This document shows, in pieces, positions 40,332-45,213 of a DNA stretch of 64,000 bases. Source of the stretch: a bacterium HR29 (lineage in GTDB: Bacteria > Chloroflexota > Dehalococcoidia > Tepidiformales > Tepidiformaceae); contig BEIF01000001.1 of NCBI GenBank assembly GCA_002898215.1, positions 1,215,602-1,279,601 on the forward strand, read 5' to 3'. Made by a program: the position numbers and the translations under genes. The notes below the pieces were generated by a model that was given only the letters and a program-made list of their open reading frames with translations, made no database searches and had not been told where the DNA came from. How positions within the stretch are numbered: position 1 is the first letter of the stretch; the number at the start of each line of letters is the position of its first letter.

Positions 40332-40351
40332 TAGAACGTTTGTTCTACACT
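40332..40351 (+). promoter_or_regulatory. SOS (LexA-type) box and -10 of imuB
   Basis: A 16-bp palindrome, TAGAAC-GTTT-GTTCTA (40332-40347), fits the GAAC-N4-GTTC LexA operator of Gram-positive-type SOS systems. Its right end overlaps a TACACT -10 element (40346-40351), nine bases before the imuB ATG. LexA bound here would block polymerase directly. Confidence 0.8.
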
Positions 40352-40360
40352 GGCAGCCCC

Positions 40361-41584
40361 ATGAAGGTGGCGTGCTTGCTCATCCCCGATTTCGCAGTCG
40401 CGGTGGCTAGGCGCGACCACCCCGAAACCCGCGGGCGCCCGCTCATCGTGGCGGCTGCCGGGGAGGATGCCCCGCGCGTGCGAGCCTGCTGCCCGCAGGC
40501 TGTCCGGTCAGGGGTCAGCGAAGGGATGGTCCTGCGCCGGGCGCTCTCCCTCTGCCCGAAGGCAGCCGTCGTCCCGGCCGACGAGCGGGCGCTGGCCGAG
40601 ACGGCGGCGGCCCTGCGCACGCTCGCCGAGCGGCACAGCCCTGCTGTCGAGGAGGCAGCGCCCGGCCATCTGCACCTGGATGTCCGGGGGCTGGCGCAGC
40701 TCGCGGGGCTTGCCGACGAAGCCTACCTGGCCGACCTCCAGCGGGCAGCTTCGGCAGCGAGCGGGCTTCCGGTGTCCATCGGGGCGGGGCCGGGGGTATT
40801 CGCCGCCCACGCGGCTGCCGCAGCCGCCAGCGCGGAGCATGCCGGGAAAACGGGAGCCCCGCCGCCCGTGCTCGTGCCGGAGGAGGGCGTAGCGGAGTTC
40901 CTAGCGCCCCTCCCGGTGGAGGTGCTCCCCCTGCCGACGGCGATGCATCAGCGGCTCCGACTGCTCGGCATCGAACGGTTGGGCCAGCTGGCGGCCCTTC
41001 CCCGAAGCGCCGTGGCGGCGCAGTTCGGACCCGCTGGCGCTCGCGCATGGGACCTGGCCGCCGGAAAGGACACGAGCACCGTCGTTCCCCGGCGTCCGGA
41101 GCGGACGGCAGGGGCCGCGATGGAGCTTCCTGCACCGGCGAGTACGGCCGAGCAGCTTCTGGCGGCGACCAGCGCGCTGCTCCAGCAAGCGCTGGAAGCG
41201 CCGGCGCTCCGCGGAGCAGCCTGGCGGCGCTGCACGTGGCGGCTCGAACTGGAAAGCGGCGAGGCGGTGGTGCGGGTCGTGACCTTCCGCGAACCTACTT
41301 CCGATGGCGAGCGGATGCTTTTCGTGCTGCGCCAGAAGATCGCGCGGCTGACCCTGCCTTCTCCGGGAGTGCGCCTGTCCCTGAAGCTCTCGGGCCTGTG
41401 CGGCGAATACGGGCATCAAGCCGTGCTCTGGCCGAGCGGGCCGCGGCGGCGGCGCGAACTGCTGGAAGCGGCAGAACAGCTCAGCGCACGGTACGGCGAA
41501 CCCCAGATCTTCCGCGTGGTGGAGGTGGAGCCATGGTCGAGGATTCCGGAACGGCAGCTGGCGCTGGTGGCCTTCGGCCGCTGA
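40361..41584 (+). CDS. imuB: ImuB-type Y-family polymerase homologue (mutasome scaffold)
   Basis: A 407-residue Y-family protein that in other bacteria bridges DnaE2 to the sliding clamp and does not itself polymerise. The palm strand reads CLLIPDFAVAVA, and where active Y polymerases have SxDE this protein has VEEAAPGHLHLDV, so the paired acidic residues appear to be missing. The HhH region (LGIERLGQLAAL) and little-finger domain are present. The ATG at 40361 is used; a TTG further upstream falls inside the SOS box. It is followed by a DUF6504 gene and dnaE2. Confidence 0.9.
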   Translation: MKVACLLIPDFAVAVARRDHPETRGRPLIVAAAGEDAPRVRACCPQAVRSGVSEGMVLRRALSLCPKAAVVPADERALAETAAALRTLAERHSPAVEEAAPGHLHLDVRGLAQLAGLADEAYLADLQRAASAASGLPVSIGAGPGVFAAHAAAAAASAEHAGKTGAPPPVLVPEEGVAEFLAPLPVEVLPLPTAMHQRLRLLGIERLGQLAALPRSAVAAQFGPAGARAWDLAAGKDTSTVVPRRPERTAGAAMELPAPASTAEQLLAATSALLQQALEAPALRGAAWRRCTWRLELESGEAVVRVVTFREPTSDGERMLFVLRQKIARLTLPSPGVRLSLKLSGLCGEYGHQAVLWPSGPRRRRELLEAAEQLSARYGEPQIFRVVEVEPWSRIPERQLALVAFGR

Positions 41585-41853
41585 ACACACCAATCCCTAC
41601 CGCGGTCGACGCCACTCCTTCGGGGGTGCCACGAGCGGTGCTCCGACGGGGCAAGCTCGTGCCGGTGGCGAGGATCATCGACCGGTGGCGCATCGACGAC
41701 GAGTGGTGGCGAGCGCCCATCGTCCGGCGCTACTTCCTGGTGGAGCTGCGCGACGGCCATCAGCTCACCCTCTTCCACGACGCCGTGCACGACGCCTGGT
41801 ATCGGCAGCCCTACCCCGCGCCCGTCGAGCGGGTGCAGCGCCGAGGAGCGTAG
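41533..41853 (+). CDS. DUF6504-like small protein of the imuB-dnaE2 cassette
   Basis: A 106-residue protein starting inside the imuB 3' end (52-bp overlap) with GGAGGTGGAG before its ATG. Its C-terminal 65 residues (ARIIDRWRIDDEWWRAP, RRYFLVELRDGHQLTLFHD, WYRQPYP) resemble the DUF6504 proteins that accompany imuB and dnaE2 in actinobacteria. Rich in Trp, Arg and Asp, with no membrane part. Function unknown; the position suggests a role in the mutasome. Confidence 0.8.
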   Translation: MVEDSGTAAGAGGLRPLNTPIPTAVDATPSGVPRAVLRRGKLVPVARIIDRWRIDDEWWRAPIVRRYFLVELRDGHQLTLFHDAVHDAWYRQPYPAPVERVQRRGA

Positions 41854-41859
41854 CCGTTT

Positions 41860-41879
41860 TCGAACATATGTTCTATACT
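41860..41879 (+). promoter_or_regulatory. SOS (LexA-type) box and -10 of dnaE2
   Basis: TCGAACATATGTTCTA at 41860-41875 contains the perfect 12-bp palindrome GAACATATGTTC. Its right end overlaps TATACT (41874-41879), seven bases before the dnaE2 GTG. This is the same layout as at imuB, so both genes should be repressed by LexA and induced by DNA damage. Confidence 0.85.
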
Positions 41880-41886
41880 CGGGCCC

Positions 41887-44800
41887 GTGGCGGGGTACGT
41901 CGAACTCCACGCGCACTCCTGCTGGTCGCTGCGCGAAGGCGCCAGCACGCCCCACGAACTGGTGGCCCGGGCGCGGGCGCTGGGCTACGAGGCGCTCGCC
42001 CTCACCGACCACGACAATCTGTACGGGGCGATGGAGTTCGCCCGCGCCGCGCACGATGCGGGGATACGCCCCATCACCGGCTGCGAAGTGACGATGGCCC
42101 CCCGCGCGCCGGACGAAGCACCATCGCACCTGACGCTCCTGGCTGCCGATGCCGAGGGTTACCGGAACCTCTGCCGGCTGCTGACCCGCGCCCACTGCAC
42201 GCACGGGAAAGACGAGCCGCGGGTGGAGTGGTCCTGGCTCTTCGAGCTCCGTGACGGGCTGGGCGTGCTCAGTGGATGCCGCCGCGGCCCCTTGGCCAGG
42301 CTCCTCGACCCGGCGCAGGGAGACCTCCGCTGGCGCGAAGCGCGAGCCCTCGCCGGCGAGCTGCGCGACGCGCTAGGCGACGCGTTCTTCGTCGAGCTGC
42401 AGCACCACGACGTCTACGGCGACCGCCATCGGGCCGCTGCCCTGGTACGCATCGCCACCTCGGCCGGCATTCCCATCGTGGCCACGAACAACGTGCACTA
42501 CCACGTGCGGGAGCGGCATCGCCTCCACGACGTGCTGGTGGCCATCCGCCACCGGCTGACGCTGGATGCTTCCCACGCGGTACGGCGGCCGAACTCGGAG
42601 TTCTTCCTGAAGTCCCCCGAGGCCATGGTGCGCCGCTTCGCAGCCTACCCCGAAGCGGTGCGGAACACCCTGGCCATCGCCGAGCGGTGCACCTTCGACC
42701 TCGTCCGCGACATCCCCTACCGGCTGCCCGAGTACCCCGTTCCGGAGGGAGCAACTCCCGACGGCGTGCTGCGGGATATCTGTGAGCGAGCGTTCGCACG
42801 GAAGTACGGGACAGCCGACCCCGCGGTCCGCGCGGAAGCGCGGGAGCGGCTCGAGCGGGAACTGGCCCTCATCGCGAAGCACAAGCTCGCGGGCTTCTTC
42901 CTGGTGTACTGGGACATCCTGCAGCTTGTCGGCGAAATCGCCCACGAGCTGCACGGGCGGCCGCGGGAGCTTCCGCCGGACGAACGGCCGGTAGGGCGAG
43001 GACGTGGCTCCTCGGTGAGCTCCATCGTCTGCTACCTCATCGGGCTTTCGCACATCGACCCGGTGACGAACGAGCTCTACCTGGAGCGCTTTCTGAACGA
43101 CGAGCTGTATTCGCTGCCTGATATCGACCTCGACTTTCCGCGGGACATCCGCGACGAGCTGCTGAAACGTGTCTACGACCGGTACGGGCCGGAGCACGCG
43201 GCGATTGTGGCGGCCTTCCCCACCTACCGCTTCCGGAACGCCGTGCGGGACATCGGTAAGGCGCTGGGGTTGCCGGAGCCGCTGGTGGCGAAGCTGGCGA
43301 AGATGGGAGACGGCTTCGCCAGCGCCCGCCAGGTGGAGCAGGAGATGCGCCGCATCCCGGAGCTGCGCCCTCTTGCCGACCAGCCGCTGTGGCGGGACCT
43401 CATCGAGTTGGCCGAGCAGCTCGCAGGCTTCCCCCGGCACATCAGCCAGCACGTGGGCGGCGTGGTGATTTCCGCCGAGCCCCTTTCGAGCGTCGTGCCA
43501 CTGGAGCCCACGAGGATGGAGGGGCGGTTCGTCTGCCAGTGGGACAAGGATTCCGTCGACGATGCCCGCTTCGTGAAGTTCGATTTCCTCGCCCTCGGAA
43601 TGCTCTCCGCCGTCGAGGAATGTCTGGACATCATCGAGGACACGCATGGGGTTCGCGTCGACCTGGGACGCATCCCCCACGACAGCCCGGAGGTGTTCGC
43701 CGCCATCCGCGAAGGAGACACGATGGGCGTCTTCCAAATCGAGAGCCGGGCGCAGATTCAGACGCTTCCGCGCACCCAGCCGCGGAACCTGGCCGACCTG
43801 GCGGTACAGGTCGCCATCATCCGCCCCGGCCCGATCCTGGCGGGTGCGTTTCGGCCGTACATGGAGTACCGGGAGCGGCTGGCGCGGGGCGAGCCGGTGA
43901 CCATCGACTACGGCCACCCGGAGCTGGAGCCGCTGGTGAGTTGGTGCCTGGCGGAAACGCTGGGCCACGTCCTCTACCAGGACCAGGTCCTTCAGATCGC
44001 CACCTCGGTGGCCGGGTTCACCCCCGGGCAGGCGGATCGTCTGCGCCGGGCGATGAGCCGGAAACGCTCGGCCGAAGCGATGCAGGCGCTGGCCGAGGAG
44101 TTCTTCGCCGGCGCCCGTCGAAAGGGGGTGAGCGAGGAGGCAGCGAGGGTGGCCTTCGAGAAGATCGCGGCCTTCGCTGCCTACGGCTTCCCGAAGAGCC
44201 ACGCGGTGGCTTTCGCCCTGCTCTCGTACGAGTCGTGCTGGCTGCGGCTGCACTATCCCGTGGCCTACTACTGCGCCCTCATCAATGCCCAGCCCATGGG
44301 CTTCTACTCCGTCGAGAGCCTGCTGGAGGATGCCCGCCGGCACGGCATCGAGGTGCGCATGCCGTCGGTGAACGCCAGCCGAGCCTGCACCTGGCCGGAG
44401 GGCGATGCCATCCGCCTCGGCCTCGACCGGGTGGCCGGGCTGGGCGGCGGATGGCGCCGCCGGGGTATCCGCCGCAAGGGCGGACGGGACATCCTCGTAG
44501 GCCCGCTGAGCCCTGCGGAGCGCATCGAATGGGAGCGGACCTGCGGGGGGCCGTACCGCTCGCTCTCCGACTTGGTGACGCGGGCCCGGCTGGACCGCGG
44601 GCAGGCAGAAGCGCTCATCCGCGCAGGCGCGCTCGACGAGTTCGGACTTTCGCGGCGCGAGCTCCTCTGGCAGCTGGGGCTGCTGACGTTGGGGACGACG
44701 AACCGCGAAGGCACCGCCTTCCAGCCGCCGCTGCCGTTGCCCACGGACCAGGACATGGTGTTCCTCCCCGAACTGAGCCCCTGGCAGCGGATGGCGTGGG

Positions 44801-45213
44801 ATTGGGAACTGGTGGGTACCAGCCCCGTCGGCCACCCGATGGCCCTCATCCGTCCGCTCCTCCACGAGGGGATCCTCACGAGCCGACATGTAGGCGGGGT
44901 CGGGAACCCGAACCGGCTTCCCCAGGGGATGCGAGTCGAACTGGCAGGCATGGTGGTCACGCGGCAGCGGCCGGAATCGGCCGGAGGGGTGATGTTCATG
45001 CTGCTCGAAGACGAATTCGGCTGGGTGAACGTGGTCGTCCACCCGCAACTACAGGACGCCCAGCGGGAACTGGTGCGAGCGACACCCTTCGTCATCGTCC
45101 GGGGGAGGGTCGATAACGAACGGAGCGGCTTCCCGCACATCGTCGCGGAGCGATTCAGGCCCTGTCCTCTGCCCGGCCAGATCGCCCCGCCCGATTCCCA
45201 CGATTTCGGCTGA
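41887..45213 (+). CDS. dnaE2: Error-prone DNA polymerase DnaE2
   Basis: DnaE2 performs mutagenic bypass of lesions. The 1108-residue C-family polymerase has an N-terminal PHP domain (VELHAHSCWSLREGAS, LALTDHDNLYG), the catalytic aspartates in LPDIDLDFPRDIRDE near residue 411, the conserved GRGRGSSVSSIVCYLIG, and a C-terminal OB fold (VELAGMVVTRQRP). It is shorter than the replicative DnaE1 and sits in the imuB cassette, both supporting DnaE2. The GTG is 7 nt after the -10, so the mRNA is probably leaderless. Confidence 0.95.
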   Translation: MAGYVELHAHSCWSLREGASTPHELVARARALGYEALALTDHDNLYGAMEFARAAHDAGIRPITGCEVTMAPRAPDEAPSHLTLLAADAEGYRNLCRLLTRAHCTHGKDEPRVEWSWLFELRDGLGVLSGCRRGPLARLLDPAQGDLRWREARALAGELRDALGDAFFVELQHHDVYGDRHRAAALVRIATSAGIPIVATNNVHYHVRERHRLHDVLVAIRHRLTLDASHAVRRPNSEFFLKSPEAMVRRFAAYPEAVRNTLAIAERCTFDLVRDIPYRLPEYPVPEGATPDGVLRDICERAFARKYGTADPAVRAEARERLERELALIAKHKLAGFFLVYWDILQLVGEIAHELHGRPRELPPDERPVGRGRGSSVSSIVCYLIGLSHIDPVTNELYLERFLNDELYSLPDIDLDFPRDIRDELLKRVYDRYGPEHAAIVAAFPTYRFRNAVRDIGKALGLPEPLVAKLAKMGDGFASARQVEQEMRRIPELRPLADQPLWRDLIELAEQLAGFPRHISQHVGGVVISAEPLSSVVPLEPTRMEGRFVCQWDKDSVDDARFVKFDFLALGMLSAVEECLDIIEDTHGVRVDLGRIPHDSPEVFAAIREGDTMGVFQIESRAQIQTLPRTQPRNLADLAVQVAIIRPGPILAGAFRPYMEYRERLARGEPVTIDYGHPELEPLVSWCLAETLGHVLYQDQVLQIATSVAGFTPGQADRLRRAMSRKRSAEAMQALAEEFFAGARRKGVSEEAARVAFEKIAAFAAYGFPKSHAVAFALLSYESCWLRLHYPVAYYCALINAQPMGFYSVESLLEDARRHGIEVRMPSVNASRACTWPEGDAIRLGLDRVAGLGGGWRRRGIRRKGGRDILVGPLSPAERIEWERTCGGPYRSLSDLVTRARLDRGQAEALIRAGALDEFGLSRRELLWQLGLLTLGTTNREGTAFQPPLPLPTDQDMVFLPELSPWQRMAWDWELVGTSPVGHPMALIRPLLHEGILTSRHVGGVGNPNRLPQGMRVELAGMVVTRQRPESAGGVMFMLLEDEFGWVNVVVHPQLQDAQRELVRATPFVIVRGRVDNERSGFPHIVAERFRPCPLPGQIAPPDSHDFG

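Follow-up and report, generated by a model that had tools for sequence, protein, structure and literature searches.

In B. subtilis and M. tuberculosis, LexA is well established to recognize the sequence GAAC-N4-GTTC (PMC3323433, PMC9578287). Translesion cassettes with a gene for a stand-alone ImuB-C protein have been described as well: the imuY-imuB-C-dnaE2 cassette of Deinococcus, in which this gene occupies the position of a 106-aa open reading frame (ORF) of the locus studied here (PMC8072749), and the DnaE2X-iPolY-ImuB-C-RecA module, in which ImuB is split (PMC12926913). In the open-access literature, we found no direct description of a Gram-positive type SOS regulon or LexA motif in Chloroflexota of the Dehalococcoidia type, the group in which the host is placed by named relatives of its DnaE2 at 69-72% identity. 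The DNA analyzed was a stretch of 64,000 nucleotides (the window) from a bacterial genome, referred to below as the host genome. The features of the cassette are as follows.

40334..40345, plus strand: predicted LexA operator GAACGTTTGTTC, 5' of the imuB-like gene (from the sequence, and with a box in 15/15 family imuB genes)
40346..40351, plus strand: TACACT, predicted -10 hexamer for imuB transcription (its TA common to the operator; TAnnnT follows GTTC in the family)
40361..41584, plus strand: imuB-like gene (imuY/iPolY type) for a 407-aa Y-family protein (PF00817, 9e-21)
41533..41853, plus strand: 106-aa ORF, DUF6504-like, overlapping the imuB 3' end (sub-threshold match to PF20114; dnaE2-adjacent homologues)
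41862..41873, plus strand: predicted LexA operator GAACATATGTTC, 5' of dnaE2 (exact in 19/22 family dnaE2 genes)
41874..41879, plus strand: TATACT, predicted -10 hexamer for dnaE2 transcription, directly adjacent to the operator
41887..45213, plus strand: dnaE2, error-prone DNA polymerase of 1108 aa with a GTG start (NCBIfam PRK05672)

A sequence-only reading of this DNA had described a palindrome upstream of each of the two genes, and both are present as claimed. The imuB palindrome (40332-40347) has 6-bp arms, TAGAAC at 40332-40337 and GTTCTA at 40342-40347, on either side of a GTTT spacer; its GAAC-N4-GTTC core is exact and lies 15 nt 5' of the imuB-like ATG at 40361. Read directly from the window, bases 40332-40351, from the palindrome through the -10 hexamer, are TAGAACGTTTGTTCTACACT. 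The dnaE2 palindrome, CGAAC-ATAT-GTTC, also contains an exact box, 13 nt 5' of the GTG at 41887, and bases 41861-41879, the box plus the -10 hexamer, read CGAACATATGTTCTATACT. The claim that the palindromes overlap the -10 elements holds for imuB, where two bases are shared, but the dnaE2 hexamer only abuts its box unless the flanking T is counted. The identification of GAAC-N4-GTTC as the Gram-positive LexA operator agrees with the B. subtilis and M. tuberculosis site (PMC3323433, PMC9578287).

The arrangement is conserved in relatives. Among 22 dnaE2 relatives (67% identity or more with readable upstream DNA, the host genome included), the box is exact in 19, has one mismatch at the same place in 2 and is absent from 1, G014; all 15 close imuB relatives have the box. 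The second copy in one genome and more distant loci were counted apart from these two sets. In the alignment of exact-box family promoters, TAnnnT directly follows GTTC in 34 of 34 rows, with T, A and T invariant and with about 0.2-0.3 bits per column in the flanks; the rows were selected for the box, so that the box columns are partly biased and only the -10 element and the spacing are unbiased, TAnnnT having played no part in the selection, and the relatives in this footprint are not independent of each other. The distance from the -10 element to the start codon is 6-10 nt in nearly all of these promoters. Since this spacing provides no room for a usual leader, the imuB and dnaE2 transcripts are probably leaderless, with 5' ends at or a few nucleotides from the start codon; the lexA transcript of M. 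tuberculosis is known to be leaderless (PMC3062782). A consensus scan of the window for sigma-70-type promoters turned up none that had a good -35 hexamer, a result that we counted against the LexA-promoter model and because of which we claim no -35 element.

The name imuB given in the earlier reading fits the Y-family assignment of the first product (PF00817) but not its extent, in that the protein ends before the ImuB-C domain, which is probably encoded by the separate DUF6504-like ORF that comes next. Because the catalytic Asp-Glu pair of Pol IV reads Gly-His in the imuB-like protein (alignment to 7yll), this protein is probably not a polymerase. The 106-aa ORF scored 17.8 bits against PF20114, below the cut-off of 24.2, and its homologues adjoin dnaE2 in relatives; this sub-threshold DUF6504 match together with its position makes it a probable stand-alone ImuB-C protein. 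The dnaE2 product scored 1001 bits against PRK05672 (cut-off, 939), and a separate DnaE1-type match is located at G000 C3:77635. The gene 5' of imuB is a DUF1385 gene, imuA is not adjacent, and the PF00154 profile, which is not specific for ImuA, matches only RecA in the host genome. The cassette thus appears closer to an imuY/iPolY - ImuB-C - DnaE2 arrangement than to the canonical imuA-imuB-dnaE2 one.

The host genome encodes one LexA (P0001), with S24 peptidase and LexA DNA-binding domains, which in an alignment to solved LexA chains retains the AAG cleavage motif (Ala-Gly site) as well as the Ser and Lys residues. A second PF01726 match (C1:682377), with a helix-turn-helix (HTH) but without a peptidase domain, was rejected as LexA. 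The expectation that the same box would be found near lexA and recA was borne out for lexA, with the exact box GAACATCCGTTC 16 nt 5' of the gene and a box 5' of lexA in 27 of 30 loci examined. The host recA has no exact box but only a one-mismatch site, GCACAAATGTTC, which we counted against the LexA model; in most family members, boxes that are exact or have one mismatch occupy the corresponding place at recA. Exact boxes near start codons in the host genome include those of lexA, imuB and dnaE2 as well as those of ribonucleotide reductase, HTH, MrfA-like (helicase) and MrfB-like (RNase_H_2 nuclease) genes. The relatives' MrfA-like and MrfB-like genes often have the variant boxes GAAC...GTGC or GCAC...GTTC near the start.

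Several further observations were made at these and other loci. The MrfA-like (L012:2452-4784) and MrfB-like (L007:1286-2536) genes are unlinked in the host and are divergent neighbours in G009. The ribonucleotide reductase gene (L005:2506-4855) has its box 22 nt upstream, and an exact or one-mismatch box is nearby in the five relatives in which the gene was detected. A 102-aa HTH protein (L008:2527-2887; G000 C3:54726-55086) contains a Cys-rich stretch, CDLYPSCLRCPLPRC, and its gene is preceded by a box and then a -10-like hexamer that are kept in nearly all family members having the gene, making it a candidate uncharacterised SOS gene. Another exact box (L009:2509-2520; C1:762008), with a partial copy alongside, is flanked by a relA-like gene on one side and a tRNA-like stretch on the other; the minus strand has a possible ORF for a small membrane peptide. 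In Actinomycetota-labelled and other MAG loci, LexA-type boxes occur as a tandem pair 5' of imuB, at a distance of 16-19 nt from each other (L052:1338-1366, L053:755-782, L055:453-481, L057:2233-2261, L061:979-1009 and L063:1793-1821), and some of these loci also carry a box 5' of dnaE2.

We consider it very probable that LexA represses separate imuB and dnaE2 promoters through the two palindromes and that DNA damage opens both. In the undamaged cell, a LexA dimer on GAAC-N4-GTTC would span the spacer, reach onto the 5' edge of the -10 element and so block RNA polymerase at both promoters, of which one would serve the imuB-like gene and the ImuB-C-like ORF and the other dnaE2. On damage, RecA on single-stranded DNA would trigger self-cleavage of LexA at the Ala-Gly site, both promoters would be freed, and the cell would make DnaE2, the ImuB-C protein and the inactive Y-family protein, which would act in translesion synthesis, possibly as a complex. 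LexA binding, damage induction, transcript start points and complex formation are what we infer from these data.

Chance occurrence of palindromes in a G+C-rich genome might be suggested by the window count, which is only mildly above that of shuffled sequences: three exact sites versus 0.69 expected, a count matched by 3 of 100 shuffles and therefore weak evidence. The host genome contains 49 exact sites, whereas the reversed control pattern occurs 10 times; sites inside genes, which make up most of the 49, were taken as background. It is the position of the boxes, not their count, that is telling. A 60-nt upstream stretch is expected to contain about 0.0004 exact sites, yet two neighbouring genes each have one, next to a -10 element, and the box is conserved in relatives against unconserved flanks; this conservation leaves no reasonable doubt, and we regard chance as vanishingly improbable. 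Binding of the same sites by another repressor or activator, such as a phage-type or XRE regulator, is conceivable given that LexA binding here is predicted from sequence, and the GCAC form of the half-site is seen repeatedly at mrfB and recA. However, the same box lies 5' of lexA itself across the family, the remaining targets are repair genes and the genome has just one LexA, so that we judge such a regulator very unlikely.

LexA control of two promoters must also be weighed against a single operon, in which the imuB promoter would drive imuB, the ImuB-C ORF and dnaE2 and the second box would be weak or vestigial. The three genes are indeed contiguous on the same strand, and dnaE2 lacks a box in nine other genomes with contiguous cassettes, including the family members G003, G014, G006 and G020. 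Against this, the host dnaE2 site has perfect dyad symmetry, with TATACT next and then the start codon at the conserved spacing, and all 12 of the 12 genomes with loosely linked or unlinked dnaE2 retain this box-(-10)-start unit. We consider the single operon unlikely. The persistence of the unit where dnaE2 is unlinked from imuB supports the earlier proposal that dnaE2 has its own promoter, and the reading as a whole, LexA on both promoters with a separate one for dnaE2, is well supported as a prediction.

With contiguous defined as an imuB-dnaE2 gap below about 420 nt, 9 of 10 contiguous genomes lack the dnaE2 box, the host genome being the sole exception, as against none of the 12 genomes with looser or no linkage (Fisher p 2e-5, relatedness ignored). 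The DnaE2 tree permits a single branch (support 70/89) to set off the contiguous state, with no resolution of the forks near the host genome. Pattern and tree together fit, but do not show, an internal promoter that arose before gene dispersal. It is possible, though in our judgment short of probable, that dnaE2 of this family gained its own LexA-controlled leaderless promoter inside a contiguous imuB-(ImuB-C)-dnaE2 cassette, making later dispersal tolerable. If so, the window would preserve an intermediate state. Contiguous cassettes with one predicted SOS promoter offer a natural comparison with dispersed genes with one each.

Our findings extend, by sequence, the Gram-positive type SOS regulon to a Dehalococcoidia-type Chloroflexota lineage and would place under LexA control a mutagenesis cassette that apparently lacks ImuA and probably has a split ImuB; this seems to be ordinary, well-understood regulation in a bacterial lineage where it is seemingly little described. 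The operator, the box at lexA and the repair and translesion targets are like those of the LexA/SOS regulon of B. subtilis and M. tuberculosis, whereas the Chloroflexota host, the boxes at MrfA-like and MrfB-like genes, and the joining of operator to -10 element with near-leaderless starts at imuB and dnaE2 differ. The cassette resembles the ImuA-ImuB-DnaE2 mutasome of Mycobacterium and Caulobacter in its dead Y-family protein and error-prone DnaE2, with SOS control here predicted, but it has no adjacent imuA, and its probable ImuB-C is not fused to ImuB. In order and sizes, and probably in composition, with a likely split ImuB beside DnaE2, it is like the DnaE2X-iPolY-ImuB-C-RecA module (PMC12926913). 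With the Deinococcus imuY-imuB-C-dnaE2 cassette it shares an inactive Y-family gene, probably a small stand-alone ImuB-C, dnaE2 and the lack of an adjacent imuA; LexA/RecA control has been shown for that cassette and is predicted for the host one, in which, unlike in Deinococcus, lexA lies elsewhere in the genome and dnaE2 has its own LexA box.
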